Assembly: GCA_014879565.1 (NCBI GenBank)
Contig: JACSRW010000017.1
Coordinates: 1-64,000 of the forward strand
Length of the DNA stretch: 64,000 nucleotides
Reading direction: 5' to 3'
Origin: Chitinophagaceae bacterium
GTDB lineage: Bacteria; Bacteroidota; Bacteroidia; Chitinophagales; Chitinophagaceae
Shown one piece after another: positions 20,402 to 60,714 of the stretch; positions within the stretch are counted from its first letter, which is position 1, and every line of letters begins with the position of its first letter. The translations under genes and the position numbers were made by a program. Below the pieces are notes generated by a model. That model saw only the letters and a program-made list of their open reading frames with translations, was not told the origin of the DNA and searched no databases.

Positions 20402-20450
20402 TTACCTGCTGCCAATTACCCATTGCGTATTGGCCATTGCCTGTTGCCTA
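20402..20450 (-). repeat. Degenerate period-7 tandem repeat, 3' of gcdH
   Basis: The plus strand reads as successive heptamers close to CCYATTG (CCAATTA, CCCATTG, CGTATTG, GCCATTG, CCTGTTG, CCTAC). The gcdH stop TAG (CTA on the plus strand at 20448-20450) lies in the last unit. It is one of seven related tracts in this window. Confidence 0.75.
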
Positions 20451-21632
20451 CTTAAACGCATTAAACCCTGTCACATCCATCCCCGTAATCAGCAGATGAA
20501 TATCATGGGTGCCTTCATATGTGATCACACTTTCCAGGTTCATCATATGCCGCATGACCGGGTATTCGCCGGTTATTCCCATCCCCCCCAGTATCTGACG
20601 TGCATCGCGGGCAATCTGGGTGGCGATTTCACAGGAATTCCGTTTGGCCATACTCACCTGCTGCGGGGTTACTTTCCCTTCGTTCATCAGTACACCCAGG
20701 CGCCAGTTCAGCAATTGCGCCTTGGTGATCTCGGTTATCATTTCCGCCAGCTTTTTCTGCTGAAGCTGAAAGGCGCCGATAGGTTTACCAAACTGCTGCC
20801 TTTCCTGTGAATAACGGAGCGCCGTATCGTAACAGTCCATAGCCGCCCCGATTACCCCCCAGGCAATACCATAGCGGGCCTTGGTAAGACAGCTCAGGGG
20901 GCCCTTAAGCCCTCTCACCCCTGGAAGAATATTTTCTTTCGGCACTTTTACATTGTCAAAGACCAGTTCTCCTGTTGCAGAAGCACGGAGGCTCCATTTA
21001 CCATGCGTGGTGGGAGTGGAAAACCCTTCCATGCCCCTTTCCACAATCAGTCCGGTAATCACACCCGCCTCGTCTTTGGCCCATACCACAGCAACCTGCG
21101 CAAAGGGGGCATTACTGATCCACATTTTGGCGCCATTCAGTATTACATGATCGCCTGCGTCTTTGATCGTTGTAATCATACTGCCCGGGTCGGAGCCATG
21201 GTCTGGTTCTGTCAGACCAAAACAGCCCAGCCATTCCCCGCTGGCCAGTTTGGGCAGGTATTTTCTTTTTTGCTCTTCACTTCCATAGGCATTGATCGGG
21301 AACATAACCAGGGAACCCTGAACAGAAGCAGTGGAGCGCACCCCGCTGTCCCCTCTCTCCAGTTCCTGCATCATCAGACCATAGGAAATATAATCCAGTC
21401 CGCCACCTCCATATTCCGCCGGCACAGTCGGACCAAAGCAACCCAGTTCTCCCAGCTGTTTAACAATCTGCTGCGGAAATTCTGCCCGCTGGGCATAGTC
21501 TTCAATGATGGGTGAAATTTCTTTTTTTACATAACTCCGGACGGCGTCACGGATCATCAGGTGCTCTTCTGTCAGTAAAGCATCTACCTGGAAATAATCG
21601 GGGCTCTGAAAAAGGTCAGTACGGGCTGCCAT
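20448..21632 (-). CDS. gcdH: Glutaryl-CoA dehydrogenase
   Basis: 394 aa. FAD-dependent acyl-CoA dehydrogenase that oxidatively decarboxylates glutaryl-CoA to crotonyl-CoA in lysine and tryptophan breakdown. Subfamily is indicated by GVRSTASVQGSLVM (with the glutarate-binding Arg), YGSEEQKRKYLPKLASGEW, GCFGLTEPDHGSDPGSM, and the C-terminal MNLESVITYEGTHDIH carrying the catalytic Glu. The product could feed the hbd gene at 27.8 kb. A TACCTTTG -7 element is at 21655-21662. Its stop lies inside a heptamer tract. Confidence 0.92.
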   Translation of the reverse strand: MAARTDLFQSPDYFQVDALLTEEHLMIRDAVRSYVKKEISPIIEDYAQRAEFPQQIVKQLGELGCFGPTVPAEYGGGGLDYISYGLMMQELERGDSGVRSTASVQGSLVMFPINAYGSEEQKRKYLPKLASGEWLGCFGLTEPDHGSDPGSMITTIKDAGDHVILNGAKMWISNAPFAQVAVVWAKDEAGVITGLIVERGMEGFSTPTTHGKWSLRASATGELVFDNVKVPKENILPGVRGLKGPLSCLTKARYGIAWGVIGAAMDCYDTALRYSQERQQFGKPIGAFQLQQKKLAEMITEITKAQLLNWRLGVLMNEGKVTPQQVSMAKRNSCEIATQIARDARQILGGMGITGEYPVMRHMMNLESVITYEGTHDIHLLITGMDVTGFNAFK

Positions 21633-21654
21633 AGCAATCAGTTTTTTTAGATTA

Positions 21655-21662
21655 CAAAGGTA
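21655..21662 (-). promoter_or_regulatory. -7 promoter element for gcdH
   Basis: Plus-strand CAAAGGTA, i.e. TACCTTTG on the coding strand, 22 bases upstream of the ATG. Confidence 0.5.
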
Positions 21663-21786
21663 TTGAAAAGGGGCTCAGTTGGCGCAGCATGGACATTTTT
21701 TACCGCTCCGTCCCGCCTGCAGCCTTTGTTCAAAGATCTTACTGCGGGTGTTATCCTTTTTTTTATCTTGAATAAAATCTCCTGTT

Positions 21787-22203
21787 ATGCACAAAATAGG
21801 TATCCTGCTGACCGTTTCCATTTTTTTCAGTTTTTCCGCCGCCGCACAGAAAGACTCGTCCGCGGCACCGCCCCGGATCAAACAGTTCTGGCTGGTTGTG
21901 CTCAAAACCGGTCCCAGGGACAAGGAAATAACCGATACCGCCGCGCGGAATAAGCTGTTCGCCGGTCACTTTGCCAATATGAACCGCCTGCACAAAGAGG
22001 GAATTCTTAAAGTAGCCGGTCCCTTTGGAAAAAATGATTTTACCTGGAGAGGCCTTTTTATCCTGGATTGTAAAACCAGGGAAGAAGCCGAAGCGCATGT
22101 CAAAACCGACCCTACAATACGGGAAGGTATATTTATAACGGATATAGTACCCTGGTATAGTGAAGAAACAGGAAGTTTTGCACCGCAGTCTGTGCAAAAG
22201 TAA
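21787..22203 (+). CDS. Exported YCII-like domain protein
   Basis: 138 aa. Signal peptide MHKIGILLTVSIFFSFSAAAQ, then a YCII-related (dimeric alpha-beta barrel) domain: FWLVVLKTGPRD, GHFANMNRLHKEGILKVAGPFG with the family His, and LFILDCKTREEAEAHVKTDP. YCII proteins are usually cytoplasmic, but exported versions are common in Bacteroidota. Reaction unknown. It converges on pyrF, and the space between them is filled by a heptamer tract. Confidence 0.75.
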   Translation: MHKIGILLTVSIFFSFSAAAQKDSSAAPPRIKQFWLVVLKTGPRDKEITDTAARNKLFAGHFANMNRLHKEGILKVAGPFGKNDFTWRGLFILDCKTREEAEAHVKTDPTIREGIFITDIVPWYSEETGSFAPQSVQK

Positions 22204-22204
22204 A

Positions 22205-22285
22205 TAGTAGTTTGTAGCCTGAAGTAACCGGTAACCGACTACAGACTACCAACAACCAACTCCGGCCTGCCGTCTACCGGCTAAC
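22205..22285 (-). repeat. Degenerate period-7 tandem repeat, 3' of pyrF
   Basis: The plus strand divides into eleven uninterrupted heptamers near TACCGAC (TAGTAGT, TTGTAGC, CTGAAGT, AACCGGT, AACCGAC, TACAGAC, TACCAAC, AACCAAC, TCCGGCC, TGCCGTC, TACCGGC). The pyrF stop (CTA at 22274-22276) is inside it. This is the longest perfectly phased tract in the window. Confidence 0.8.
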
Positions 22286-23080
22286 ATAGGCCGCCATCTC
22301 TGCCTGGTATTCATGTGCAGCATCACGCGCTTTTTCTGCGAAATCAGTACCGGAAGAGGCAAATATTATTGCGCGGCTTACATTCACCAGGATTCCGCAA
22401 TCTGCATTCATAGCTTTTTCACTGATGTCCTTTAAGGAGCCCCCCTGTGCGCCTACTCCCGGCACCAGGTAAAAATGATCAGGTGTAAGCCTTCTGATAT
22501 TAATAAATGAATCTGCCTGTGTGGCCCCGATCACAAACATGGTATTTTCGGGTGTACCCCAGCGGGAAACCGTTTTCAGCACTTCTTCGTATAACAATCC
22601 TTCCCCGGCTCTTTTCAGTTCAAAATCGGCAGCTCCTTTATTGGAAGTCAGTCCGAGCACAATCGCCCATTTACCGGCATGCTGTAAAAAAGGCTTAACA
22701 CTGTCTTCTCCCATATACGGGGCCACAGTCACCGCATCAAAAGGAAGGGTTTCGAAAAAGGCTCTGGCATACTGATCTGAGGTGTTTCCGATATCTCCTC
22801 TTTTGGCATCTGCTATGGTGAAATGGGATTGGCCGATATAACGGACCGTTTTCTCAAGTGTATCCCAGCCCCTTGCTCCCAACGCTTCATAAAATGCCGT
22901 ATTGATCTTATAACTCACACAAAATTCGCGGGTGGCATCTATGATAGCTTTATTAAAGGCCAGTACGGGATCAGGCTCCTGCCGCAGGTGAACAGGTATT
23001 TTAGTAATGTCCGAATCCAGCCCTACACAGAGATAGGATTCCTTTTGCCGGATCAGTTCCACTAGTTCTTTTCTGGTCAT
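22274..23080 (-). CDS. pyrF: Orotidine 5'-phosphate decarboxylase
   Basis: 268 aa, the longer class of OMP decarboxylase. Converts OMP to UMP, the last step of de novo pyrimidine synthesis. Motifs: LCVGLDSDITKIP, the catalytic IADAKRGDIGNTSDQYA, GLTSNKGAADFE and the phosphate-binding VPGVGAQGGSLKD. The start is four bases from a TAAATTTG -7 element (23085-23092), so a separate leaderless message is likely even though kynU lies just upstream on the same strand. The C-terminal codons run into a heptamer tract. Confidence 0.95.
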   Translation of the reverse strand: MTRKELVELIRQKESYLCVGLDSDITKIPVHLRQEPDPVLAFNKAIIDATREFCVSYKINTAFYEALGARGWDTLEKTVRYIGQSHFTIADAKRGDIGNTSDQYARAFFETLPFDAVTVAPYMGEDSVKPFLQHAGKWAIVLGLTSNKGAADFELKRAGEGLLYEEVLKTVSRWGTPENTMFVIGATQADSFINIRRLTPDHFYLVPGVGAQGGSLKDISEKAMNADCGILVNVSRAIIFASSGTDFAEKARDAAHEYQAEMAAYVSR

Positions 23081-23084
23081 GCCG

Positions 23085-23092
23085 CAAATTTA
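23085..23092 (-). promoter_or_regulatory. -7 promoter element for pyrF
   Basis: Plus-strand CAAATTTA (TAAATTTG on the coding strand), four bases upstream of the pyrF ATG. Confidence 0.55.
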
Positions 23093-23121
23093 TACGCATC
23101 CGGACAGGGCGGTACGTTAAG

Positions 23122-24399: not shown

Positions 24400-24409
24400 A
24401 CAGTTTAAA

Positions 24410-25194: not shown

Positions 25195-25214
25195 GCGAGC
25201 AGATTATTTGGAGG

Positions 25215-25856: not shown

Positions 25857-25884
25857 GCGCTTTAATTTCAGCGAACTGCCCTCT

Positions 25885-27018: not shown

Positions 27019-27064
27019 AACATCAGGCGGGTCAATTTGTTGTAGGAAATAGGCAACTTGTCCC

Positions 27065-32479: not shown

Positions 32480-32638
32480 ACGTTATTCTTTAGGTGGAAT
32501 AAATGTAAGGCAAGCGGGGTAATCAAGGGTTTGTTTGTTTTCAACACCTGTTTACATCCCGGCAAAGAACGAAAAAAACTGTGCCACGTTGCGGGCCCAT
32601 TTTACAATTTAGAGGAATTTAACAGTCCGCCCCTGCTG

Positions 32639-32692
32639 CTATCTACTAACTGCTAACTCCTGACTCCCGTCTCCCATCTCCCTACTCCCCTC
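32639..32692 (-). repeat. Degenerate period-7 tandem repeat, 3' of phnA-like gene
   Basis: Heptamers near CTRACTC on the plus strand (CTATCTA, CTAACTG, CTAACTC, CTGACTC, CCGTCTC, CCATCTC, CCTACTC, CCCTCCC). The stop codon of the phnA-like gene (CTA at 32682-32684) is inside the tract. Confidence 0.78.
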
Positions 32693-38390: not shown

Positions 38391-38421
38391 TTGTTTGAAG
38401 TTTGATTTTTGGGGTTTATTC

Positions 38422-38470
38422 CCTATTGCCCATTGCCTATTGCCCATTGCCTATTGCCCCTTACCCAATA
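38422..38470 (-). repeat. Period-7 tandem repeat, 3' of the DapA-family gene
   Basis: The cleanest tract: CCTATTG and CCCATTG alternate (five units, 38422-38456), then CCCCTTA and CCCAATA. It spans the last codons and the stop (CTA at 38451-38453) of the DapA-family gene and runs to within 32 bases of the aldehyde dehydrogenase start. Confidence 0.85.
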
Positions 38471-39359
38471 CCGGCCTGCTCTCAATCCCCTTCTCAATCA
38501 CCGCCAGTATCCGGGCTCTTTCTTCTCCATCCAGTATCAGCCGGGGGGCACGAACATATTCTGAACCAATACCGGTTTTAGACGCGGCCAGTTTGATATA
38601 CTGCACAAGTTTAGGGTGAATATCCAGTTCAAGCAAAGGCATAAACCAGCGATAAATCGCTGTTGCTTCCGCGATCTTTCCTTCTTTAACGAGGTTATAA
38701 ATTGCCGTTGTCTCTTTGGGAAATGCGCAAACAAGTCCGGCCACCCAGCCATCCGCGCCCAGGCACAATTCTTCCATGGCCAGTGTATCCACCCCACAGA
38801 GAATTTTAAACCGGTCACCAAAACGGTTTTTCATCCTGGTCAGATTGGTCACATCCCTGGAGCTTTCTTTTAATGCCGTTATGTTCTCACATTCCGCCAG
38901 TTCATCAAACAAAGCCGGATGGGCATCAATTTTATAATCCACCGGATTATTATAGATCATTATGGGAAGGGAGGTAGCCCGTGCAACGGTTTTAAAATAA
39001 TTGACCGTTTCCCGGTCATCCGATTTATACCGCATCGGAGGTAAAAGCATCAGTCCGTCTGCGCCCCATTTCCCGGCGAGCCCGGCCTGTCTTACGGCTT
39101 CGGTCGTTGTACTTTCCGCGATATTCAGAATCACGGGTATTTTTTTTCCAGGCCTTGCCAGTGCTGAAAGCACCATTTGTTCCTTTTCCTGTTCGGTAAT
39201 TGTACTGGCTTCGCCAAGAGAACCACCGATAATTACCCCTTGCACACCGGCATCCACTTGTGCATCCAGGTTTTTTTCAAACAGGGACAGATCCAGCCTG
39301 TCATCTTTTGTAAAAGGGGTAAGCAGGGCGGGGAAAACCCCTTTCCATTCAAATTGCAT
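38451..39359 (-). CDS. DapA-family aldolase/dehydratase, probable hydroxyproline-pathway deaminase or sugar-acid dehydratase
   Basis: 302 aa. A TIM-barrel class I lyase of the DHDPS/NAL superfamily. Schiff-base Lys is in NITALKESSRD, the conserved Tyr in MIYNNPVDYKID, and GGSLGEASTIT replaces the usual GTTGE. Not a true DapA: the window offers a downstream aldehyde dehydrogenase instead. With it, the best guess is Delta1-pyrroline-4-hydroxy-2-carboxylate deaminase of trans-4-hydroxyproline breakdown; a 2-keto-3-deoxy-sugar acid dehydratase is the main alternative. The C-terminal VLGKGQ and the stop are inside the repeat tract. Confidence 0.78.
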   Translation of the reverse strand: MQFEWKGVFPALLTPFTKDDRLDLSLFEKNLDAQVDAGVQGVIIGGSLGEASTITEQEKEQMVLSALARPGKKIPVILNIAESTTTEAVRQAGLAGKWGADGLMLLPPMRYKSDDRETVNYFKTVARATSLPIMIYNNPVDYKIDAHPALFDELAECENITALKESSRDVTNLTRMKNRFGDRFKILCGVDTLAMEELCLGADGWVAGLVCAFPKETTAIYNLVKEGKIAEATAIYRWFMPLLELDIHPKLVQYIKLAASKTGIGSEYVRAPRLILDGEERARILAVIEKGIESRPVLGKGQ

Positions 39360-45755: not shown

Positions 45756-48700
45756 ATGTTTGCCCTCCGACCCCTACGGCAGGGATTCCCTGTTCTCCTT
45801 GCCATCATCCTGCTGACCGGATTACAGAACAGCTATGCACAAACGCCAGAAGACCTCGAAAAAATGGGCAAAGAAGCCCAGGGATTTCAGTTTAAACTGA
45901 AATTCCGGGGAAGTCCGCCACCCACAGCAGACGATATTAAATTCAGGGCGATTACCGAACTACTCAACAAGTATAAAGGGCAGGTGCCGGCTGATTTGCA
46001 ACTCCCTTTCCGGGCACAGGGTCCACAGGCTGCTGAAAAACCATTCCTGACGGATGACCAGCAGGCTTCCCTGAAAGATCAGTCCACCCGTTTCTTTCGG
46101 GAAATGGCGGAAAAAAACCTGACTGTTCAGGATCTCCAGAAATACAAGGAAGTATTTAAAAATACAAATCCCATGCCCGGAGATAATCCGGCAGATCCCC
46201 GGATTGCATGGCGTGGCGCTTATGAAGGCATTGAAAGAACCCTCATGGGTGGCCGGACCCTGCTAATCATGGACGTTTGGAAACAAACCATGCTGGATTA
46301 TTTCCGGTCACATCCCGAAGCGGTTGGCGTGGTGTACGGGCAGATGGATATCGGCTCCTGGGTGAAAATGAATGTGGACGGACTTGGGTTTGCGGCGGAT
46401 ATAGACTTCAGTACCATCGCCACCGATTCCAAAAGCAACCAGGCCATCCATAACCTATTTGGTGAAAACCTGCGCCGGGCCAGTGGTCTGGGCATGATTC
46501 CGATTGATGTGGTGCATACTGCCCACGGACTCGCCGGGGCGGAAGTATTTATCGGGGAATGGGGCAAGGCATTTGCTGAAGTGGATATGCTGCGGCGCGG
46601 CAAGTGGAAACTGATTGAAGTAATTAAAAATGAAAACGGACAGATCGTAGACATCAGAACCACGGAAAAAGAAGGCAAGCAGCTCTTTATGGAAAAAGGG
46701 ATTGAAGCGGAACTGAAAGCCCAGCAGAAAGATCCGGCCAACCAATTTGATCCGAAAGAAAAATACCCTGAACTGTCTATAAAAATGGAACCCATGCTCA
46801 GCCTGGAAATGCTGCGGCATGCCATCCATGATATTGAACATGGTCCGTTCGAGGGCGGACAAAAGATCATAAAAATGATCAAATACACAGAACGGAGTTT
46901 CTTTATGATCAGCGAAGCCATGAAGGAAGTAGCGCCCAATGACCAGAACACCTATTTCCGTCTTTCCCCCGAAGAGGCCCGGTTTAAAACGCTGTGCGAA
47001 CAGGTTATAAAAAACAAAGGAGACGGACGCCGGATCGCTGTATTGCTGGAAGAATTCACCGGACAGAAACTGGAACATGCGGAACAGGCCAGGCTGATTG
47101 CCGAATCCATTACCGAACAGTGCAAAAAGGCCATGCTGAAAAATGCCGGGAACGCGTACGGTTACCGGATAAAAAGTATTGCCGCTATAAAAGAAGATGA
47201 ACAGCGCTTTGAAGAAGCAGATAAATTCCTCTGGCAAATTGAAGAGGAATTTAATAAAGGATTCCGCGAGGGAGGAACCGAAATTCCTAAATCCATGCTG
47301 CGGGCACACAGTATACTGGTGGATTTGCGGGCCGGAAAAATTCCGCCCGACCTGATGAACAGCCGGCTGGAAGAACTCAACCGGCTGATGGAAGAAGAAT
47401 ACAAAGTGGACAAATCCCTCGTGGAAAGACTGATTGGTGATCCCTGGGCACCGGTACGAAATTACCTGGTCAAAAAAGGATTCGGCCCGGAAGCCGTACA
47501 GAAGGTCCTTCTTAAGATGAAAAGTGTGTTTGCAGATAACTGGCGCCGGTATGCCCCGGAACTGGCCCAACGCCCTGCGCTGTCGGCTTATGAGTTTGCC
47601 AATCACGTTCAGCAGAAACTGAACGTGCTGAATGAACATCTGGCCAAAACAAAAGCAGGCAAAATCATGTCAAATGACCTGCTGAACTATGTGGATAATA
47701 CACTGGCGCTATATGATGCCTGGTTCAGCGGAAAAACAACCGCGGAGTGCGCCTGGAATTTCAGCTGGACAGCCGGCACTATCTGGATGCAGGGAAACTG
47801 GCCTTTCACCGCTATCCCGCTGGGCATCTTTAATTCAATCCAGTCACGCAGTCCCGCTCCCGCAGCTATGGCGGTAGCTTTTTATCTGTTCCCCTTTGCC
47901 GGACAAACCTATATGGTAACGAACCTGATTGACAGGCTTATCATCACACAGATCAGGGACTATACATTCAGAAGCCACCTGGACAAACTGGCGGTAATGG
48001 CTATCACAGATGGCCAGGGTCATGTGGTGCGTTTTAAAGTACCCCGTGCCTTTACCGGGTTATCCGGTTCCGCCGATTCCCTGGAAACCGACCCTGATAT
48101 TCCGGTTGAAGATCCGGGCCGCACGCTGGGTATCAAATCCGTATTTTATAATGAAGCATTCTTACACTGTCCCGATATTAAATACTTTGAAGGACTGGTT
48201 CCCCGGCAAAGTGACCGGCTGGGCAGTTATGAAACAAAGTTGAAAAACCTGAACAGTCTCTTTGCTTTTGACCAGGAATTCCTGGGTTACCTCGCTGCCA
48301 TCCGCCAGTTTAAAGAGGAAAAAGAGAACGGAACCCTGGAAGAAATACTGGAAGCTGAGATCGGCAAACAAAGAACCAAAATGCTCGACAGTCTCGGCCT
48401 GGTTATCGAAGATCACCTCTGGAAAGCTGTATTCAACGCCATTGAATCCACCAAAAAATCGGAGAAAGAAGGCGTGATCGGTACACTCGAAACCATCATT
48501 GTGGCCTTGCAGGATTCTCTTTACCTGGACGAATGGAATATGAAAAAAATTGACAGCCTGTCCCTGTTGCTTAAAATCAGAAAACAGGTGGAAAACGATC
48601 CGTTGTATATCCAGTTGCTGAAAGACCGTTTCTCAAAAGGTACTGCCTATGAAAGAGTGGCTATCCCCACCCTTGAATACTATATTAAAGTTTACCGGCA

Positions 48701-51700
48701 GATTAATCAGCTGCGGCCCAAACTATTTGAGATATGGCATCCCTTCGGCGTGGATGGTTCAAAACTGCAGGAAGATCCGATGCGCCTGGTTATCCTGGGC
48801 GGCCTGCGGGGTGCCCCCATGCTGACCACCGATCCGGAGAAAGATCTGCAACGCACTATTCAGTGTATTGAAGCCCATGCCAAAAGGGCAAGTGAGATCC
48901 GCTATGATCTGGCTGCAGCCCTGAGCCGTCCCATTAAAGACTCAGATAAAGAAGATAAGGAACATTTACGCATACTGGGCGAATACGGATTTGGCTTTGA
49001 AAGACTGGTGGATGCCGGTCCCGGAGGCCGCAGTCCGCTTTTCCCGGATGAGGCCAACGAAATCAACACCCGGATGAAAACCCTCCGGCAGGCATACCAG
49101 GACTACCTGGCCCGGTTGCGGGAAGGTCCGGCCCTCACCTTACGCATCCAGGTTAACGGCGAACAAACAACCACAGAAACAGAACCGGTATCGGCAGAAG
49201 CGGAACTCAGAAACGAACAGGAAAAACCCGTACCCGTACCGGCTGATTGTAAAATAGAGTGGTTTCTCTATGACAAAAGTTCCTCTAAAGAATCTAAAGT
49301 GGCGGAGGGTAAAACCGTTACGCATGATGCAAAAACTCAGGGGGACTTTGTGTATATCGTACGGCTGTTCCGCAACCGTAATAACCAGACCATTGAGGTG
49401 GCCAAAGGCTACTGGAATATCAGCGTACACCCATTTAATTTCAATGACCCTTCCAAAGGAATCAAACTGAAACTGCCGGCACTCATCAAACAGTATGATG
49501 TTTTTGATGTCTCAGCTGAAATACCTGCTTTACTGAAAGGCAGGATGAATGACTGCAGCTGGAACTGGGATGCCCTGACCGGTGATAAAAACTGCGGAGC
49601 AGCCAGGTTGCAGGTGCGGCAGTCCATGGAAACCACCGGTCCTGATGGAAAAAAATACCTGCAGGACAGCATAACAGTTGGTATTTCTTTTAAAGTGACA
49701 GATCCCGGAGCCAGCCGGGCTTCCTACCATTCCTTTAATAAAAAGGTGAAGTATCAGCACATGAGCCTGCATGTGAAGGCAACCGACATCTGGGAAGGTG
49801 GTGCCGGAACAAACTGGTTCAGGCTGGAAAGAAAGCCTGTAAAGAATGCCCCGCGTGTTCCCGGCTGGTCAGGTGACGGCAAAGCGATCAGTACAGCAGA
49901 AGCACATGCCACCGTAGGGATGAAAGACGACACCCCCTTTGGTTATGAGGAAGTCAATACACTGGAAGATCTGCAGCGCCTGATGGAAAAAGAAGCCAAA
50001 GAACAGGAATACAAAAAACTGCAGGTAAAGCCCATTTCCGTCGGAGATTTTAAAGGCTATGGACTGTACAGCGACTTTTATTATTCACCGGGTGGCTGGA
50101 GTGATGCCGGTTACAGGTCAGCCGGAGCCGGAGCCAGTTTCACAGGTTATGTGATGAAAGGGAAAAAATTCTTTGAAGTGTACTGGAGTGCAGGAGCCGG
50201 CGGTGCCTTTGACAACAGTGACAGGGGCTGGATGATGAGTATGGTAAAACAACTGGCGAATGAGTGTATCTCCATTCTTACCGGTGCCTCCTTTACGCCG
50301 GATGGAAGACTTACCCGCTCACCTTATACCGGACCCAAACCCGATGGAAGCGACTTCCCGCAAGTGGTTATCGAACCCAAACCGGATACGATACAGCCGG
50401 GTTCCAGGGTAATCGTGAAAGCCGTGATTAAAAACGATAAAGCGGATTACGGTCCGTATACCTATACCTGGACCGGGCAGACAGAAGGCAATACCAATGT
50501 TGCTGCTGTTCAGCTTTCTTCGGCCAGACCCGGCAAACAATCTGTAACCGTCACCGTTGACGGTACGGTCCCTCCGGGCAGTGCCAGCCTTGAATATGTG
50601 GTGGCTCCGCTGAAGCTCCGCCTGATAAAAGTAGCTCCGGCCGGTAACAAGATCGTAGTGGGCATGCCTGTAGAACTCCGGGCCGAATTTGTAAGTGCGG
50701 TACCAGCTGGCAAAAAATTACAATACCTGTGGCAACCACACCCCGAAGAAAAATTTACTCCCTTTGAAGGCAGTAACGGAAAGAGTATCGTCACATTCAA
50801 TAGTCCGGGTCGTAAAAAAGTCTGGGTGCAGGTGCTGGATAAAACTACAGCAGAGACCATTACACTCGGAGAATCAGAACAACTGGAATTGGAGGTGGAA
50901 AAACCAGGGTTCACCATTGTGTTTAATCCGGCCAAAGCCCCGGTAGGACAACCGGTCACTGCAACGATAAAAACCAGCCCGGAAAAACTGGATGATATCA
51001 GTTACCGGTGGATGCCCCCCGGAGCAAATGCCAATCAGGTAAGTGCCTCACAGGATGGTACTGAAATAACATTTTATGCCAAAGACGCCACGCAGGTAAC
51101 CCTGGAAGTACTGGCGCTGGTAAAAAGTAACGGAGAGGAACTGGGAAGAACCAGGGCCTATTTTACAGCAGACAGATACCTCGTTAAAACAGAAGGTCCA
51201 AAAGTACAGGGCCCCAAACCCATGATCTGGCAACCGGGTAAAGGTCTGGTGGAGGTTGATAAGGAAATAGCTGTACATCAGCAGGTGGAATTCACCGCTG
51301 TGGTTACACCACAACCATCCGGAACCATCACCTATAACTGGCAGGTTACAGAAGGCAATGCTTCCGTCAGTAACCCTGCTTCCCGTGATGTCAGGGTAAC
51401 CGCCCTTGAAACCGGTACGGTTAACATGCAGGTAACGGTGAAAGATGCCAACGGGGTTGAACTGGGAAAAGGTCTTGCCTCCTTCAGCGCCACAATATCA
51501 TCCGAACAGATCAGCCAGGGAGCCAAAGAGAAAAAGGCTTTTGAGGAAAAAATGAACCGGGCAAGACAATTAATCAAAGAAGGAAAACTGGATGAAGCAC
51601 TTACACTCGGTGAAGAATTGAATACAATGAATTCCAAAGAGGCCGCCGGCCTGATGAATGAACTGGCAGAAGCATGTAAGAAAGCCGGTAAAGAGGCTGC

Positions 51701-53978
51701 TTATGAAAGAGATTTCAGCCTGGCCATTAAGAGAATGGAACAGGCACTTCGCCTTAAACCAGGGGATGTAACCGCCAAAACGCAACTTGACCAATACCGG
51801 AAATGGCAAAAGGAATGGCCGGCTGTTTTAGCTAAAGGCAATGAACTGGAATCCCAGATTGCCGCTAAAAACACACAAACTGCAGAAAAACTGGTGGCCG
51901 ATCTGAATCGTATGCAATTTTCCATGCCCGGCCAAATGGCCAATAAATGGTCACAGGACAAATACAACAAATATGTGCAGCTGCTGAAAAGATGTGATTC
52001 CGCATGGACCATAACCCGTACCAACTGGACCGGTCATTTTAAAGACAATGATTTTGAAAACGGACTTAAAGGTTTGGAAGCCTTTAAAAATGAATGGACA
52101 GGATCTGTTGCCACCATGCGGGAAGTGGCAAGCTCCATACAATTGTGTAAATCGCAGATAGCCGAACAGAACAGGCTGTACAATGATTTCCTGCAAACCC
52201 GGTCTGCCATGGAAAAAGGTCAGCCGGTTGACCCGAAGAAAACCCCGGTATCCATAGAATATACGGCCAATAGCCGCTTCAGTTCCAAAGACCCGAGAAG
52301 ACAGGAAATGATTGATTTTGCCCGATCCATGACGCAGAAGCAAAAAGAAATGGCTGCTAACCGGGAAAAGGCGGAACAACTGAAAAAAGAAGGGCAGCGG
52401 GCTGAATCCCTGGGTGATAAGGAAGCAGCGCTGGAAAAATACAAGTCCAGTGTCGCCCTGGTTCCGGACGCTGTTCTGGAAAATAAAATCAAAGCCCTGG
52501 AAACTGAAGTTTCAGCACTCAAAGAAAAATACCGGAAAGCGGATGCGCTATGGAAGGAAGGGGAAAACCTGGTAAAGAAAAAGAAAACAAAAAGTGAAGG
52601 GCTGGAAAAAATGAAAGAAAGTCTTCGCTGGTGGAACAGTCCGGACCGTATCCGGCGGGTGAGAGAGCTGGAAAAAGAAATCAATGGCACGTACTCAAAA
52701 CTTGACATGAACGGAACCTGGAAGCACGGAAGCAGTGAGAGCTTTACATTTACCGCCCTGGGTGAAGGTCGTTATGATGCTGTGGAGAAGGGCTTTGGAA
52801 ATGCAAAAGGCACACTGGATATGATGGGGAACACCGGTCTCATTACCTACTCCACACGCGACGGGCTGGATGGTCAGTATATACTCACTGTATCAGCTGA
52901 TGGCAACAGTGCGGTGGGAGAATGGAAAGACACGAAAGCCAGCGGAACCCGGAATTTTGTCCGGACCAGTAAACCGGCAACCGCAGCACCCCAGGTTTCA
53001 AAAACAGATCCGGCCAAAAAGGAAACCGCCAAAGAGGAACCAAAAAAGAAAAAGAAAACCTTTGGCGAGTTTCTTGAAGGGGTCAATAAAGGGCTCGGAA
53101 AAATTGACAGTGTGATCACCGGTAAAAAACCCGCCGAGAAACCAACTGATCCTCCTCCGCAACCTGCACCGGGTAAATCCGATGATAAAGGAGTAAACCC
53201 CGCTGACGCCAGTGCAGAGGAAAAAATTTTCGATAACGGGAATATCGGCGGAGTTTCCAACGGACCTACCCAACCGACAACATTCACCCTGTCAAAAGCC
53301 ACTTATATAACCCGGATAGAAAATTATCACTACTACAACGGTGGAAAAAAACCGGGTACCATTGCTGTAAAACACAGCAACGGCCAGGTATATGGTCCCT
53401 GGCAGGCTTACGGACTGATCGGTCAGGGAGGGGTACAGAATGCCACCTGGGTGGTACAACCGAAAATGCAGTTGCCCGCCGGAACCTATACTGTCATTGA
53501 CAGCGATCCCTCCACCTGGTCACAAAACGGACAATCAAAAGGCTGTGGCTTTACGGTTGTCTGGGTTCCCAAAACAGCGAAACCCGTGAGCACAACAAAA
53601 GAACCTGCACCGGCTACCCCGCCTGCACCGGCGCCAAAAACAACACCGGCGCCGGAACCGCCGGCCACCACTGTAACCGGGACACTCTATGGTACGGTGT
53701 TTAAAACCAGGGAAGAAGCAAAACCATCCAATCCGTATGATTTATCAGGGGAGCCACTTCCCAACACCGCTGTAACCATCCGGTATACACTCAACGGGAA
53801 AGCCGTATCCAAAACAGTCAACAGCGATGCCAACGGCAAATTTGAATTCACCGGATTACCACTGAATACCGTAATACAGGTTAGCAGTCGAGGGATAACC
53901 GTGAGCAGATCATTAACAGCCGGTACAGCCAGGCAATACGTTCAGTTTGGCTGGGACGGTGAAATAGAAGTAAAATAA
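45756..53978 (+). CDS. Giant exported multi-domain protein of unknown function
   Basis: About 2740 aa from ATG 45756 (MFALRPLRQG...; GTG at 45729 adds 9 residues). Signal peptide ending NSYAQ. Residues about 30-1120: mostly helical, of no family I recognise, with one hydrophobic patch near 665-730 (GTIWMQGNWPFTAIPL...PAAMAVAFYLFPF). About 1125-1230 and 1515-1920: PKD/Ig-like beta modules (YTYTWTGQTEGNT, ITYNWQVTEGNAS). About 1920-2310: TPR-like helices and coiled coil. About 2315-2405: a lipocalin-like beta sheet (MNGTWKHGSSESFTF). Then a Lys/Pro linker, a beta domain (about 2487-2605, IFDNGNIGGVSNGPTQPTTF) and a C-terminal SdrD/carboxypeptidase-like module (AVTIRYTLNGKAVSKTVNSD). No T9SS tail. 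The membrane protein gene starts 6 bases after its stop. Confidence 0.75.
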   Translation: MFALRPLRQGFPVLLAIILLTGLQNSYAQTPEDLEKMGKEAQGFQFKLKFRGSPPPTADDIKFRAITELLNKYKGQVPADLQLPFRAQGPQAAEKPFLTDDQQASLKDQSTRFFREMAEKNLTVQDLQKYKEVFKNTNPMPGDNPADPRIAWRGAYEGIERTLMGGRTLLIMDVWKQTMLDYFRSHPEAVGVVYGQMDIGSWVKMNVDGLGFAADIDFSTIATDSKSNQAIHNLFGENLRRASGLGMIPIDVVHTAHGLAGAEVFIGEWGKAFAEVDMLRRGKWKLIEVIKNENGQIVDIRTTEKEGKQLFMEKGIEAELKAQQKDPANQFDPKEKYPELSIKMEPMLSLEMLRHAIHDIEHGPFEGGQKIIKMIKYTERSFFMISEAMKEVAPNDQNTYFRLSPEEARFKTLCEQVIKNKGDGRRIAVLLEEFTGQKLEHAEQARLIAESITEQCKKAMLKNAGNAYGYRIKSIAAIKEDEQRFEEADKFLWQIEEEFNKGFREGGTEIPKSMLRAHSILVDLRAGKIPPDLMNSRLEELNRLMEEEYKVDKSLVERLIGDPWAPVRNYLVKKGFGPEAVQKVLLKMKSVFADNWRRYAPELAQRPALSAYEFANHVQQKLNVLNEHLAKTKAGKIMSNDLLNYVDNTLALYDAWFSGKTTAECAWNFSWTAGTIWMQGNWPFTAIPLGIFNSIQSRSPAPAAMAVAFYLFPFAGQTYMVTNLIDRLIITQIRDYTFRSHLDKLAVMAITDGQGHVVRFKVPRAFTGLSGSADSLETDPDIPVEDPGRTLGIKSVFYNEAFLHCPDIKYFEGLVPRQSDRLGSYETKLKNLNSLFAFDQEFLGYLAAIRQFKEEKENGTLEEILEAEIGKQRTKMLDSLGLVIEDHLWKAVFNAIESTKKSEKEGVIGTLETIIVALQDSLYLDEWNMKKIDSLSLLLKIRKQVENDPLYIQLLKDRFSKGTAYERVAIPTLEYYIKVYRQINQLRPKLFEIWHPFGVDGSKLQEDPMRLVILGGLRGAPMLTTDPEKDLQRTIQCIEAHAKRASEIRYDLAAALSRPIKDSDKEDKEHLRILGEYGFGFERLVDAGPGGRSPLFPDEANEINTRMKTLRQAYQDYLARLREGPALTLRIQVNGEQTTTETEPVSAEAELRNEQEKPVPVPADCKIEWFLYDKSSSKESKVAEGKTVTHDAKTQGDFVYIVRLFRNRNNQTIEVAKGYWNISVHPFNFNDPSKGIKLKLPALIKQYDVFDVSAEIPALLKGRMNDCSWNWDALTGDKNCGAARLQVRQSMETTGPDGKKYLQDSITVGISFKVTDPGASRASYHSFNKKVKYQHMSLHVKATDIWEGGAGTNWFRLERKPVKNAPRVPGWSGDGKAISTAEAHATVGMKDDTPFGYEEVNTLEDLQRLMEKEAKEQEYKKLQVKPISVGDFKGYGLYSDFYYSPGGWSDAGYRSAGAGASFTGYVMKGKKFFEVYWSAGAGGAFDNSDRGWMMSMVKQLANECISILTGASFTPDGRLTRSPYTGPKPDGSDFPQVVIEPKPDTIQPGSRVIVKAVIKNDKADYGPYTYTWTGQTEGNTNVAAVQLSSARPGKQSVTVTVDGTVPPGSASLEYVVAPLKLRLIKVAPAGNKIVVGMPVELRAEFVSAVPAGKKLQYLWQPHPEEKFTPFEGSNGKSIVTFNSPGRKKVWVQVLDKTTAETITLGESEQLELEVEKPGFTIVFNPAKAPVGQPVTATIKTSPEKLDDISYRWMPPGANANQVSASQDGTEITFYAKDATQVTLEVLALVKSNGEELGRTRAYFTADRYLVKTEGPKVQGPKPMIWQPGKGLVEVDKEIAVHQQVEFTAVVTPQPSGTITYNWQVTEGNASVSNPASRDVRVTALETGTVNMQVTVKDANGVELGKGLASFSATISSEQISQGAKEKKAFEEKMNRARQLIKEGKLDEALTLGEELNTMNSKEAAGLMNELAEACKKAGKEAAYERDFSLAIKRMEQALRLKPGDVTAKTQLDQYRKWQKEWPAVLAKGNELESQIAAKNTQTAEKLVADLNRMQFSMPGQMANKWSQDKYNKYVQLLKRCDSAWTITRTNWTGHFKDNDFENGLKGLEAFKNEWTGSVATMREVASSIQLCKSQIAEQNRLYNDFLQTRSAMEKGQPVDPKKTPVSIEYTANSRFSSKDPRRQEMIDFARSMTQKQKEMAANREKAEQLKKEGQRAESLGDKEAALEKYKSSVALVPDAVLENKIKALETEVSALKEKYRKADALWKEGENLVKKKKTKSEGLEKMKESLRWWNSPDRIRRVRELEKEINGTYSKLDMNGTWKHGSSESFTFTALGEGRYDAVEKGFGNAKGTLDMMGNTGLITYSTRDGLDGQYILTVSADGNSAVGEWKDTKASGTRNFVRTSKPATAAPQVSKTDPAKKETAKEEPKKKKKTFGEFLEGVNKGLGKIDSVITGKKPAEKPTDPPPQPAPGKSDDKGVNPADASAEEKIFDNGNIGGVSNGPTQPTTFTLSKATYITRIENYHYYNGGKKPGTIAVKHSNGQVYGPWQAYGLIGQGGVQNATWVVQPKMQLPAGTYTVIDSDPSTWSQNGQSKGCGFTVVWVPKTAKPVSTTKEPAPATPPAPAPKTTPAPEPPATTVTGTLYGTVFKTREEAKPSNPYDLSGEPLPNTAVTIRYTLNGKAVSKTVNSDANGKFEFTGLPLNTVIQVSSRGITVSRSLTAGTARQYVQFGWDGEIEVK

Positions 53979-54713: not shown

Positions 54714-54741
54714 AATAACTTAAGGAATCAACTCATCATAT

Positions 54742-55839: not shown

Positions 55840-55938
55840 GGAATTTTAACAGGGATTTAAAATTATTTTGCCGGCTGAACAACCAGCAGCACAGACAAAG
55901 TTTCGTTTTTCCCTTACCTTACAGGCTAAGAAAAAAAA

Positions 55939-56313: not shown

Positions 56314-56390
56314 GCGTCCATACTGATCACCCTGTACAATGACTGTTCATTGTACCCCTGTATCTATTCCTCAATATAAAAACTTATTGT

Positions 56391-56978: not shown

Positions 56979-56990
56979 TTCATTGTTCAG

Positions 56991-57031
56991 ACAGGCAGTA
57001 TTTCTCCCGATTTACTGCCTGTTTATTTTTT
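56991..57031 (+). terminator. Rho-independent terminator
   Basis: ACAGGCAGTA (56991-57000) pairs with TACTGCCTGT (57013-57022) and is followed by TTATTTTTTTA. The second arm overlaps the last codons of the convergent MORN-like gene, so coding and terminator share sequence. Confidence 0.82.
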
Positions 57032-57839: not shown

Positions 57840-57854
57840 CACAGCATCTTTTTT

Positions 57855-57862
57855 CAAAGTTA
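57855..57862 (-). promoter_or_regulatory. -7 promoter element for the MORN-like gene
   Basis: Plus-strand CAAAGTTA (TAACTTTG on the coding strand), 15 bases before the ATG at 57839. Confidence 0.5.
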
Positions 57863-57954
57863 CAGCCCTCATCCGCATGCCACTTATGATGGCAGGTATA
57901 TTTCCAAATAATCAGCGGATTTATTGACTTCTTTCTTCCCGGATTACACTCCCG

Positions 57955-59265
57955 TTATTCCACCACTTCTCCCTCCAGGTCATAATCATAGGCCCGGGTG
58001 ATTTTTACATTCACAAACTCTCCAACAGGAAGTTTTTTAGCGGAGTGAATCACCACTTCATTATCCACTTCCACAGAATCGTATTCTGTACGGCCGAGGT
58101 AACGGCCGGCTTCTTTTTTGTCAATAAGCGTTTTAAATACTTTTCCTACTTTTTCCTGGTTCAGTTCATAGGAAATCTCCTGCTGTACTTCCATGATCTC
58201 CCGGGCCCGGTTCTCTTTTTCCTCAGCGGGCACATCATCTGCCAGGTCATAGGCCCCGGTGCCTTCTTCATGTGAGTACGTGAAAATGCCAACCCGGTCA
58301 AACCGGTGCCGTTGGAGGAAGCCTTTCAGTTCTTCTACATCGGCTTCAGTTTCTCCGGGAAACCCGGCAATCAGTGTTGTACGCAGACAGATGCCCGGCA
58401 CTTTCTCCCGGATCGCCGGAATGAGCTCCTCCATTTCTTCCCGGGTAAGCTGCCGTTTCATTGCTTTGAGCATATTATTCGCGGCATGTTGCAAAGGCAT
58501 ATCCAGGTAATTGCAAATATTATCCCGCTGACGCATCACATCCAGCACATCCATCGGGAATTTGGACGGGTAGGCATAATGGAGGCGTATCCACTCCAGT
58601 CCTTTTACATCGGCCAGCCGGTTCAGCAGGTCAGCCAGCATTCGTTTCTTATAAAGATCCAGTCCATAATAAGTAAGCTCCTGGGCAATCAGCATCACTT
58701 CTTTCACCCCCATTTTCACCAGCCCTTCCGCCTCGCGGACCAGGTCGTCAATGGATTTACTGACATGCTGTCCCCGCATCAGAGGTATGGCGCAGAATGA
58801 ACAGGTACGGTTGCAGCCCTCCGAAATTTTCATATAAGCATAATGCTTAGGGGTTGCCAGCAGTCGTTCCCCCACCAGCTCTGCTTTATAGTCAGCTTCC
58901 AGCTGTTTCAGTATCTGTGGGAGTTCCATGGTGCCAAAAAAGGCATCCACTTCCGGGATTTCGGCCTCCAGGTTGTTTTTATACCGCTCACTCAGGCAAC
59001 CGGTCACATATACTTTATCCAGTTTTCCCCGGCGTTTGAGTTCTACCTGGTCAAGAATTGTATTGATACTTTCCTCTTTGGCCTTATCAATAAAGCCACA
59101 GGTATTCACCACTACGATATTATGATCCAGTTTCCTGTTCTCGTGCACAACGTCAATATCATTGGCGCGTAACTGTCCGCTGAGCACCTCACTGTCCACC
59201 ATGTTCTTGCTGCAGCCCAGGGTAATAATATTAACCTTGTCTCTTGTTATTTTTTTTGTCTTCAT
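57955..59265 (-). CDS. rimO: Ribosomal protein S12 methylthiotransferase
   Basis: 436 aa. Radical-SAM enzyme that adds a methylthio group to Asp of ribosomal protein S12. The N-terminal UPF0004 domain has LGCSKNMVDSEVL, VVVNTCGFI and YVTGCLSERY cysteines; the radical-SAM motif is GCNRTCSFCAIP; the C-terminal TRAM domain ends in RAYDYDLEGEVVE. RimO is favoured over MiaB by IPLMRGQHVSKS and the S12-type context of translation genes. It is the last gene of the rpmB-rpmG-DUF4295-ftsY-rimO run. Confidence 0.95.
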   Translation of the reverse strand: MKTKKITRDKVNIITLGCSKNMVDSEVLSGQLRANDIDVVHENRKLDHNIVVVNTCGFIDKAKEESINTILDQVELKRRGKLDKVYVTGCLSERYKNNLEAEIPEVDAFFGTMELPQILKQLEADYKAELVGERLLATPKHYAYMKISEGCNRTCSFCAIPLMRGQHVSKSIDDLVREAEGLVKMGVKEVMLIAQELTYYGLDLYKKRMLADLLNRLADVKGLEWIRLHYAYPSKFPMDVLDVMRQRDNICNYLDMPLQHAANNMLKAMKRQLTREEMEELIPAIREKVPGICLRTTLIAGFPGETEADVEELKGFLQRHRFDRVGIFTYSHEEGTGAYDLADDVPAEEKENRAREIMEVQQEISYELNQEKVGKVFKTLIDKKEAGRYLGRTEYDSVEVDNEVVIHSAKKLPVGEFVNVKITRAYDYDLEGEVVE

Positions 59266-59277
59266 TGTTTGATTTTT

Positions 59278-59348
59278 GACCGGTCAGGCGAATGGTGAGT
59301 GGTCAGTATGTCCCCCACTGCCTATTGCCCATTGCCTTCTCCCTTCCC
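59278..59348 (-). repeat. Degenerate period-7 tandem repeat, 3' of ftsY
   Basis: The core is CCCACTG-CCTATTG-CCCATTG-CCTTCTC-CCTTCCC (59314-59348); weaker heptamers (GCGAATG, GTGAGTG, GTCAGTA) extend it left. The ftsY stop (CTA at 59322-59324) and its last eight codons lie inside. Confidence 0.75.
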
Positions 59349-60302
59349 GAGACTAAACAAACTATCCACAAACTCATGTTTATCGAAAACCAGTAAATCT
59401 TCCATTTTTTCTCCTACCCCGATAAATTTTACAGGTATTTTAAACTGGTCAGCAATCGCCAGTACAACCCCGCCCTTGGCCGTGCCATCCAGTTTGGTAA
59501 TAGCCAGTGCCGTTACATCGGTTGCTGCGGTAAAATGCTTTGCCTGTTCCAGGGCATTCTGACCGGTACTGCCATCCAGCACAAGCAGTACTTCATGCGG
59601 TGCCCCGGGAATGGTTTTCTGCACCACCCGTTTGATTTTACTGAGCTCATCCATAAGGTGTGCTTTGTTATGCAGCCGGCCGGCTGTATCAATCAGCACC
59701 ACATCCGACTTGCGGGAAACGGCACTCTGTACTGTATCAAAAGCCACGGCAGCAGGATCTGATCCCATGGCCTGCTTTACAATAGGTACGCCAACCCGTT
59801 CGCTCCAGATAGTCAGCTGGTCCACCGCGGCGGCCCGGAACGTATCCGCCGCTCCGAGCAGGACTTCCTTACCCGCTTTTTTGAAATTATACGCCAGCTT
59901 GCCAATGGTGGTGGTTTTCCCCACCCCGTTTACGCCCACCACCAGTACAACATAGGGTGTAACAGGCAAAGCGGAATCAAAAGCATAACTGTTGGATTCG
60001 GGCGCATCCGTCAGGAGAGCTTCAATCTCTTCCTGCAGCATTTTATTAAGTTCTGCCGAGTTCAGGTATTTGTCTCTCGATACTCTTTTTTCAATCCGCT
60101 CAATGATTTTGACGGTGGTTTCAATACCGACATCGGCCCCAACCAGCGCTTCCTCCAGGTTATCCAGCACTTCTTCATCTACCGTACTTTTTCCCGCAAT
60201 CGCTTTGGTGATACGGGACAGGAAGCCTTCCTTGGTTTTCTGCAAACCAGCATCAAGACTTTCCTTTTCTTTTTTTCCGAACAGCTTATTGAAAAAACCC
60301 AT
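59322..60302 (-). CDS. ftsY: Signal recognition particle receptor FtsY
   Basis: 326 aa from the ATG at 60302 (MGFFNKLFGKKE). SRP receptor GTPase that docks ribosome-nascent chains at the membrane. N-domain helices, then the G domain with GVNGVGKTTTIGKLA (G1), DTFRAAAVDQL, VLIDTAGRLHN (G3), TKLDGTAKGG (G4) and FIGVGEKMEDL. It lacks the long acidic A domain, as in most Bacteroidota. The tail FSLGKGEGNGQ is partly encoded by a heptamer tract. Confidence 0.97.
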   Translation of the reverse strand: MGFFNKLFGKKEKESLDAGLQKTKEGFLSRITKAIAGKSTVDEEVLDNLEEALVGADVGIETTVKIIERIEKRVSRDKYLNSAELNKMLQEEIEALLTDAPESNSYAFDSALPVTPYVVLVVGVNGVGKTTTIGKLAYNFKKAGKEVLLGAADTFRAAAVDQLTIWSERVGVPIVKQAMGSDPAAVAFDTVQSAVSRKSDVVLIDTAGRLHNKAHLMDELSKIKRVVQKTIPGAPHEVLLVLDGSTGQNALEQAKHFTAATDVTALAITKLDGTAKGGVVLAIADQFKIPVKFIGVGEKMEDLLVFDKHEFVDSLFSLGKGEGNGQ

Positions 60303-60314
60303 GGTGATATGTTT

Positions 60315-60374
60315 AAGAACCAAGAATCAAGAACCAAAGAACCAGGAACCAAAGAACCAAGAACCAGGAATCAA
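60315..60374 (-). repeat. Degenerate period-7/8 tandem repeat, 3' of DUF4295 gene
   Basis: Units of AAGAACC, AAGAATC, AGGAACC and AGGAATC, with two 8-base variants AAAGAACC (plus strand). It lies between the DUF4295 gene and ftsY and ends 12 bases from the ftsY start. Confidence 0.8.
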
Positions 60375-60465
60375 ACTGCTCCGCGTTGAGGGAAGCGGTT
60401 TTAAATTAAACAACAAAAGCCATTCGCAGGAACGAACAGCTTTCATATACATCAGATGAGGGCAA

Positions 60466-60636
60466 TTATTTCTGGGCCAGGAAATCCTTCACTTTATCCT
60501 TGTGCACCATTTGCTCCTTAAAGGTATAGGCACCGGTTTTCGGACTGCGTACAGCCTTAATTACCTTGGTATAATTTTTTGCTTCGGCGGCCTGCTTGGG
60601 GTCTTTCTTGATCGCCGTTTTTGCTGCTTTTGCCAT
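60466..60636 (-). CDS. DUF4295 family small protein
   Basis: 56 aa: starts MAKAAKTAIKKDPKQAAEAK, then NYTKVIKAVRSPKTGAYTFK and ends KDKVKDFLAQK. It is too short for most ORF calls. The NYTKVIKxVRSPKTGAYTFKE core is the signature of DUF4295, a Bacteroidota-specific protein almost always placed beside rpmG and rpmB, as here. It is very basic and probably ribosome-associated. Length, position and codon frame leave little doubt that it is a gene; its exact role is unknown. Confidence 0.9.
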   Translation of the reverse strand: MAKAAKTAIKKDPKQAAEAKNYTKVIKAVRSPKTGAYTFKEQMVHKDKVKDFLAQK

Positions 60637-60680
60637 TTTGTAAAGTTGATATGATTATGAGTTAATAAGTTTAAAAGGCC

Positions 60681-60714
60681 CTGTCAACCAGTCAACCTGT
60701 TAACTTTTCAACTG
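60681..60714 (-). repeat. Degenerate period-7/8 repeat, 3' of rpmG
   Basis: CTGTCAACC-AGTCAACC-TGTTAAC-TTTTCAAC on the plus strand. It ends just before the rpmG stop (60716-60718). It is the shortest of the seven tracts. Confidence 0.6.

Follow-up and report, generated by a model that had tools for sequence, protein, structure and literature searches.

In the 64,000-nt window analyzed here (positions 1 to 64,000 of contig JACSRW010000017.1, Chitinophagaceae bacterium assembly GCA_014879565.1), and across the 3.43 Mb draft genome of 44 contigs to which it belongs (the source genome), the edges of open reading frames (ORFs) carry short tandem arrays of 7- or 8-nt units whose G-rich strand runs outward from the ORF at both of its ends. 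Across a pooled set of 283 noncoding arrays, drawn from the source genome, a second genome of the same genus (G040), four other same-genus genomes, and 79 named loci, the sense strand held more G than C in 96 of 109 stop-linked arrays (fewer in 9, with 4 ties), and the antisense strand was the G-rich one in 47 of 50 start-linked arrays. The explanation we favor, with a probability of roughly 45%, is that these are discrete arrays made outward from ORF edges, at the DNA level, by adjacent copying under a factor that varies between genomes.

Arrays of this kind were clearly enriched in noncoding DNA. Our main test sample comprised 26 stretches of the source genome, totaling 509 kb and chosen blind to repeats; further stretches picked around one repeat pattern are a biased sample, and were kept separate where relevant. 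Segments were scored at a given lag, each match adding 1 and each mismatch subtracting 1. At a score of at least 14, the intergenic part of the 509 kb held 25 segments of period 7 and 10 of period 8, against 0.3 and 0.0 in Markov-1 shuffles, along with 4 of period 6 and 5 and 17 of periods 12 and 14, and none of periods 4, 5, 9, 10, 11, or 13. After merging, 38 of 41 tracts were noncoding, and 20 of these 38 lay within 15 nt of a stop codon, about 2.5 times the 8.1 ± 2.5 expected from random placement within noncoding DNA and a value reached in 0 of 300 simulations; proximity to starts (8 of 38, against 10.3 ± 2.7) showed no such excess. Genome-wide, the period-7 signal thus exceeds shuffled background and favors gene 3′ ends, as the original prediction had held, but the arrays are not exclusive to 3′ ends, since start-linked arrays exist and obey a mirror-image strand rule. 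The same preference was found in 560 kb of G040: of 69 noncoding tracts, 26 sat at stops, where random placement predicts 13.1 ± 3.2 and none of 300 simulations did as well, and G outnumbered C on the sense strand of 24 of the 25 one-stop tracts. Among 80 named FtsY loci (911 kb, score 16), 38 carried a tract, with 51 segments of period 7, 36 of period 8, 3 of period 9, 7 of period 11, and none of periods 4, 5, 6, 10, 12, or 13. Samples from farther afield were small: at score 15, 120 kb from three further genera of the family yielded 3 tracts, all in one genome (G085), and samples of the order (40 kb), class (120 kb), and phylum (120 kb) yielded none of period 7 or 8.

The strand rule is confined to the immediate vicinity of the ORF. 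Near stops (at most 15 nt away) arrays followed it 86:8, and near starts (at most 30 nt away) 59:6, while successive bins farther out showed no clear bias (2:1, 7:9, 5:12, and 5:8 for stops; 8:6, 15:6, and 13:14 for starts). Edge-proximal background pieces scored 0.50–0.53 at stops and 0.61–0.69 at starts, and the 50 nt past 188 array-free stops of the source genome leaned the opposite way (68 with G > C, 101 with G < C). Position was similarly sharp, with 97 arrays in the first 15 nt from a stop, 3 at 16–30 nt, 17 at 31–60 nt, and 17 at 61–120 nt, against 1358, 576, 873, and 1080 background pieces in the matching bins. The rule does not merely reflect a need for stop codons, since 30 stop-linked arrays whose unit lacks stop codons on either strand kept it 24:3, which opposes a stop-codon filter as its sole cause. 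G-quadruplexes cannot be the general cause either: only 9 of 283 arrays have four runs of at least three G with loops of 1–7 nt on either strand, as judged by a sequence scan, GGG or CCC occurs within the unit of just 33, and units devoid of both keep the rule 84:8 at stops and 46:2 at starts. R-loops formed at 3′ ends by a G-rich nontemplate strand would fit the stops, but predict the wrong strand before starts.

Within the window, each tract was compared with 2000 Markov-1 shuffles of itself at lag 7 or lag 8, and all seven tracts proposed at the outset scored above chance. The tracts and one adjoining gene are as follows.

20402–20450, minus strand: degenerate GGCAATR array (CCYATTG on the plus strand) spanning the stop (20448) of a gcdH-like gene; lag-7 score 11, reached by 6 of 2000 shuffles.
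20448–21632, minus strand: acyl-CoA dehydrogenase gene (gcdH-like; Pfam PF02771, PF00441, and PF02770) with this array at its 3′ end.
22196–22285, no strand assigned: period-7 array filling the gap between a YCII-domain gene and pyrF; lag-7 score 19–21, with 0 of 2000 shuffles reaching the score of its 22205–22285 portion, which lies between convergent genes (YCII-domain gene ending at 22203 on the plus strand, pyrF at 22274 on the minus strand).
32636–32692, minus strand: GGGAGAC units drifting to AGTTAGT at the stop (32682) of a YjdM/PhnA-domain gene (Pfam PF03831); 0 of 2000 shuffles for the tract from 32639.
38393–38472, minus strand: GGCAATR array at the stop (38451) of a dapA-like gene, with a distal CAAACTT stretch; 0 of 2000 shuffles for the tract from 38422.
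59278–59348, minus strand: GGCAATR array spanning the ftsY stop (59322), then a reversed GTGAGTGG stretch; 4 of 2000 shuffles.
60315–60374, no strand assigned: AAGAACC array of 7- and 8-nt units, separated from the ftsY start by 12 nt and from the DUF4295 stop by 92 nt; 0 of 2000 shuffles.
60680–60714, minus strand: 8-nt GTTGACAG array between an ORF ending at 60716 (taken for rpmG) and the DUF4295 gene; lag-8 score 13–14, with 3 of 2000 shuffles for the tract from 60681.

Six of the seven overlap the stop codon of a minus-strand gene or end within 2 nt of it, in line with the proposed placement, with the proviso that 22205–22285 sits between convergent genes; the genes encode an acyl-CoA dehydrogenase (gcdH-like), orotidine 5′-phosphate decarboxylase (pyrF), a YjdM/PhnA-domain protein, dihydrodipicolinate synthase (dapA-like), and FtsY, the sixth being the ORF that ends at 60716. 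The seventh, at 60315–60374, does not fit that description given its distances from the two neighboring genes, and it breaks the strand rule on its start side. A suspected weak eighth tract at 27030–27062 is unsupported, its score being reached by 272 of 2000 shuffles. The best matches listed for the window's FtsY come from Chitinophagaceae and Chitinophagales metagenome assemblies (90–93% identity). Elsewhere in the window, positions 45756–53978 form one plus-strand ORF of about 2740 codons.

Arrays are diverse in sequence yet share their step. The 283 arrays comprise 159 distinct consensus units, with partial sharing, so that the proposal of a private unit for each locus is borne out for the many units seen once but not for families recurring across unlinked loci. 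In the window, the CCYATTG family is common to three of the seven tracts (20402, 38422, and 59278); in the source genome GGCAATR (46 overlapping pattern matches, 36 forward and 10 reverse), GAGTAAT, GGGAGAC/GTC, and GTTGAGGG recur at unlinked loci, and GGTTCTT is also among its recurrent families. Those that recur in G040 are GAAGTAC, AAAAAGT, GGGAGTC, and GTGAGTG. AGT is the trinucleotide most in excess over shuffled units (34 against 16.4 in 81 genus arrays, and 17 against 6.4 in 28 named-locus arrays). Averaged over 24 arrays, identity is 0.81 between adjacent units and drops to 0.67 at a separation of eight units, the pattern that error-prone copying of the adjacent 7–8 nt would leave, with neighboring units most alike and identity decaying with distance. 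The common 7- to 8-nt step supports the idea of one mechanism behind a shared period. As a separate observation, period-6 tracts of the CTCAACCTCAGC type flank a 146-nt GGGAGTC array at L119:8482–8898, where no gene is called.

Comparison of orthologous ends gives examples of turnover between species. Among 170 reciprocal best pairs of source-genome and same-genus genes, 150 ends were array-free, 6 had an array in the source genome only, 11 in the other genome only, and 3 in both (score 13); inspection by eye revealed more re-arrayed ends than this count, with another unit at the same end. The dapA-like end carries GGCAATR in the source genome and a AAGTAAAA array at the best-match gene of G040, and by eye GGCAATR contrasts with GTTGAAAG at the L102 end and GAGTAAT with GTGAGTG at the L110 end. 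By eye, 16 of 29 same-genus ftsY loci have a rimO-like gene as the next gene with no spacer, 6 have a spacer of at most about 30 nt, and 4 have another neighbor; array DNA is found in this place in the source genome, G012, and G040, in two unit families. Two Longitalea species, also compared by eye, share a family with a different unit order at one end and have replaced families at another, and both arms of an inverted pair have changed together. Arrays do form anew at some gene ends, with related species carrying different units at orthologous ends, although the units are not private to a locus.

Arrays also reach into the genes they adjoin. TAG is the stop codon of 18 of 47 array-linked genes, compared with 36 of 378 among all genes, although some of the stretches behind the former count had been chosen for a unit containing TAG; in unbiased rows it ends 5 of 20, and in G040 7 of 25 against 57 of 407. 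Array-encoded tails extend FtsY (GEGNGQ) and the DapA-like protein (GKGQ) beyond the ends of their orthologs. Duplication of the stop codon as a seed was considered and rejected: of 27 arrays at or over a stop, the stop was repeated exactly one unit on in 5, and in two of its three letters in 13. By eye, several arrays separate a stop from a terminator-like hairpin. Inverted partners lie no more than 300 nt away for 65 of the 283 arrays, so that arrays are not generally hairpin arms. Two long inverted arrays at L070:1466–1675 and 4831–4920 show, by eye, mirrored unit drift, as if their arms had been mutually corrected. One paired form is a dispersed, bidirectional terminator-like element in which inverted GAGTAAT arrays surround a CCCTCC..GGAGGG hairpin, and 7 of its 8 aligned source-genome copies lie between convergent genes:

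L099:17900–18062, with further copies at L163, L166–L170, and L173: GAGTAAT hairpin element.

Array density varies strongly within the genus. Among same-genus genomes represented by at least 30 kb, we counted 0–1 arrays per 100 kb in G029, G043, G044, G045, G031, and G048, and 7.5–25 in the source genome, G040, G034, and G047, with intermediate values in G046 (5.7; 2 arrays in 35 kb) and G028 (2.1). Because congeners range from 0–1 to 7–25 arrays per 100 kb, we infer a variable encoded factor rather than general polymerase slippage alone. Three families were tried for this role. Reverse transcriptase, present in 6 of 42 genomes, and Ku, present in 2, do not track density, while a match to the Y1 transposase family PF01797 occurs in 18 of 42 same-genus genomes. 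Leaving out the source genome and G040, genomes of the genus with PF01797 had 32 arrays in 210 kb and those without had 3 in 413 kb, counting any PF01797 class as present and a below-cut-off match (G044) as absent, and omitting G010, which has two copies. The proteins carry the HxH, WQ, and Y---Q--HH signature of Y1 subclass 1.2: Y---Q--HH is found at 27 of 29 strong Y1 loci, and is invariant in 18 aligned rows that include both source-genome copies. On the FtsY tree, Y1 presence requires 6 changes, at least 3 of them forced by well-supported branches. Across the family, loci with arrays numbered 30 of 44 with Y1 and 13 of 34 without at score 14 (one-sided p 0.008), 25 and 12 at score 16 (p 0.048), and 12 and 8 at score 20 (p 0.46). 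Presence was here defined by profile A2 at E ≤ 1e-12 (50 genomes) or by the signature in the best PF01797 locus (28 genomes), with L084 left out and the near-signature loci L046 (YIQNQEARH), L085, L072, and L087 placed among those not of subclass 1.2; this set shares part of its assemblies with the genus set. Y1 carriage thus goes with density inside the genus and does so weakly in the wider family; clear exceptions exist in both directions, and we treat it as a lead. Separately, G149 (the genome of L060) has eight 155-aa Y1 proteins with near-equal, weaker profile scores (63 bits), probably an IS200-type element.

The arrays, about 25 to 230 bp long, begin at an ORF edge and extend outward with the G-rich strand in front; under the favored explanation, a process that copies the adjacent 7–8 nt with errors would both make and renew them, as the decay of unit identity suggests. 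The examples above show that some unit families spread or are favored in a genome and give way to others over species time, and that some ends have been re-arrayed. The arrays lie in 3′ or 5′ untranslated DNA, supply the stop and a few residues of some genes, and have an inverted partner in about a quarter of cases. The strand rule would mark either the strand that is lengthened outward from the ORF or strong selection at its edges. Most likely, the arrays are not regulators but arise as by-products when DNA ends or single strands are processed, and are tolerated where an ORF begins or ends. A comparable rule has been recorded for a single type of repeat in unrelated bacteria, so the process at the DNA level seems to be broader than a peculiarity of this group. 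A more specific form, for which we see only a slim chance, is outward self-templated extension by 7–8 nt from ORF-side 3′ ends, resembling that of telomeres, with the ends then rejoined; an orphan Y1 HUH endonuclease of subclass 1.2 would cut or join the single strands. At an intergenic nick or break, the 3′-ending strand leaving the ORF would be the G-rich one, and rejoining of both ends would leave G-outward arrays face to face.

Several points weigh against the favored explanation. Density among species is entangled with phylogeny, and two close relatives, G028 (with Y1) and G043 (without), differ little (2 arrays in 94 kb and 0 in 97 kb). Comparisons involve one genome per species, and a change in array copy number was never seen directly. 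Array-free ends carry a trace of period signal at most (0.270 at lag 14 against 0.259 at lag 13 in the source genome, standard error 0.005); this sets aside a pervasive weak period 7 at such ends and makes the arrays discrete, the trace itself being a point on the other side. All gene calls come from a simple, uncurated ORF caller, which could bias counts toward the strand rule as reversed stop-linked arrays could read through as coding; this bias is limited, with only 11 of 294 arrays coding, and the 1–15 nt bin (29:3) and stop-free units are less exposed to it. Finally, by eye, the two Longitalea species carry one and the same array of 8-nt units upstream of a presumed DUF4295 gene, and Niastella populi has an almost identical version (L042:5585–5631, L055:5498–5544, and L044:5494–5536), in contrast to the rapid turnover at other sites; near-invariance between genera suggests a function at this site.

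The strongest competitor, which we regard as a serious though less probable account, combines replication slippage favoring 7-nt units with purifying selection that spares harmless sites. Because start and stop codons lack C, the G strand would be tolerated after stops and the C strand before starts; heptanucleotide excess has indeed been described in many prokaryotes and ascribed to polymerase contact length (as cited in the available portions of PMC4679880 and PMC4692102). All three frames hold a stop in 26 of 47 arrays on the sense strand and in 7 of 47 on the complement, compared with 36 of 177 pieces of background, and the background at start regions already leans the same way, both as selection would have it. 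However, stop-free units keep the rule, a filter does not predict the abrupt fall from 97 to 3 arrays beyond 15 nt from the stop, and some congeners, whose replicase is presumed to be alike, are nearly array-free. This near-absence also counts against a Rho gate, which we consider improbable, in which a C-rich strand entering the ORF would load Rho and stop untranslated inward transcription, the sequence being otherwise free to vary provided that C stays above G and the RNA does not fold. Rho prefers C over G; the inward strand is C-rich at both edges, and the site is kept while the unit changes at some ends. Convergent gene ends, moreover, are richer in arrays than tandem ends in the source genome (13 of 56 against 9 of 147) and G040 (10 of 66 against 17 of 177), but this excess is absent in named relatives (7 of 140 against 24 of 270), and some inward strands lack any YC dinucleotide, such as ACTTTTT, the complement of the G040 unit AAAAAGT.

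That an orphan subclass 1.2 Y1 HUH transposase makes or maintains the arrays through strand-specific cutting and joining of single-stranded DNA strikes us as somewhat less improbable than the Rho gate, but still unlikely. The contrast in density within the genus, which neither reverse transcriptase nor Ku reproduces, speaks for it, as does the subclass itself, reported mostly in Cyanobacteria and Bacteroidetes, at low copy number and without insertion sequence properties (in the available portion of PMC6006769). One source-genome copy (L296, G000:C20:32252–32593) is flanked on one side by paired GAGTAAT arrays and on the other by GTTGAGGG and further arrays. Still, the family-wide link is weak and threshold-dependent, Y1 was the third family tried, and an array lies near only 6 of 29 Y1 loci. 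L024 and L031 are array-rich without Y1, G046 has its 2 arrays without it, and G008 has arrays and no PF01797 match; conversely, six Y1-bearing genomes show no array in 4–16 kb each, a Persicobacter replicon with a signature copy has 0 in 100 kb, and a Bernardetia replicon that also bears one has 2 in 100 kb, both arrays obeying the strand rule, in addition to the small difference between G028 and G043. The proposal that most arrays are decayed arms of dispersed palindromic elements, akin to miniature inverted-repeat transposable elements (MITEs) or REPINs acting as bidirectional terminators, draws on the eight GAGTAAT hairpin copies, the 65 partnered arrays, and the concerted change in the Longitalea pair. 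We give it little credence, as 218 of 283 arrays have no partner, other families have no common flanking sequence visible by eye, and several loci carry different unit families on their two sides.

The positional rule was known before for one quadruplex-type heptamer of Xanthomonas and Nostoc (described in the accessible part of PMC4692102); new here are its many 7- and 8-nt families and a third phylum. The near-absence of arrays in some congeners provides a natural on/off comparison within one genus, and the arrays represent a route by which bacterial genes can change their stop codon and C-terminal tail. More generally, they raise the question of what starts 7- to 8-nt arrays at ORF edges and fixes their strand. 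If extension from ORF-side ends were the true process, it would imply a bacterial end-extension system in several phyla, and a role for Y1 subclass 1.2.

In the open PubMed Central literature, a set that most subscription papers fall outside, we found no description of such arrays in Chitinophagaceae. The short tandemly repeated repetitive (STRR) sequences of cyanobacteria are tandem heptanucleotides of specific units in intergenic DNA, and the arrays described here are likewise tandem 7-mers in intergenic DNA. Long simple sequence repeats of the heptanucleotide class (Mrazek et al. 2007, as cited in PMC4679880 and PMC4692102) share the unit length, but the passages citing them state no counterpart to the strand and ORF-edge rule. 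TAACTGA direct repeats are intergenic heptamers of Beggiatoaceae, Cyanobacteria, and some Bacteroidetes (MacGregor 2015, PMC4679880, in the available portion). Those of the main organism of that study lie mostly just upstream of starts, and some of the Bacteroidetes examples are mixed with other heptamers, one set standing just past a stop in reverse orientation. Our arrays are also intergenic heptamer arrays, but none of the 283 has TAACTGA as its unit, and those of the source genome favor stops. Systems of repetitive extragenic palindromes (REP/REPIN) with Y1 RAYT proteins, as far as the accessible part of PMC6006769 describes them, resemble the present case in the presence of Y1 HUH proteins and in that paired inverted arrays can form hairpins. 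They differ in their REP hairpin unit, a 20–40 bp imperfect palindrome, whereas we observed direct repeats that mostly have no inverted partner (218 of 283), and in their cognate RAYT, whereas few Y1 loci here have an array nearby (6 of 29) and nearly all strong Y1 proteins are orphans of subclass 1.2.

The closest parallel is provided by the GGGNATC heptamers of Xanthomonas and Nostoc (Rehm et al. 2015, PMC4692102, from the portions available), and here the conceptual link to cyanobacterial heptamers drawn in the original prediction proves apt, the Nostoc repeats sharing both position and strand rule. These intergenic repeats occur on the sense strand within 50 bp of stops, some of them overlapping the stop, and on the antisense strand within 50 bp upstream of ORFs; they form inverted pairs in Xanthomonas, vary in length among relatives, and have been discussed in terms of quadruplexes. 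Similarly, the arrays described here are sense after the stop and antisense before the start, close to the ORF, in the pooled set and in G040, and 65 of 283 occur as inverted pairs. None of the 283 has a GGGNATC or GGGGA(C/T)T unit, the nearest by eye being GGGAGTC, and in place of one quadruplex-type unit per lineage there are many 7- and 8-nt families, of which 9 of 283 arrays are quadruplex-like, with units that have been replaced at some orthologous ends.

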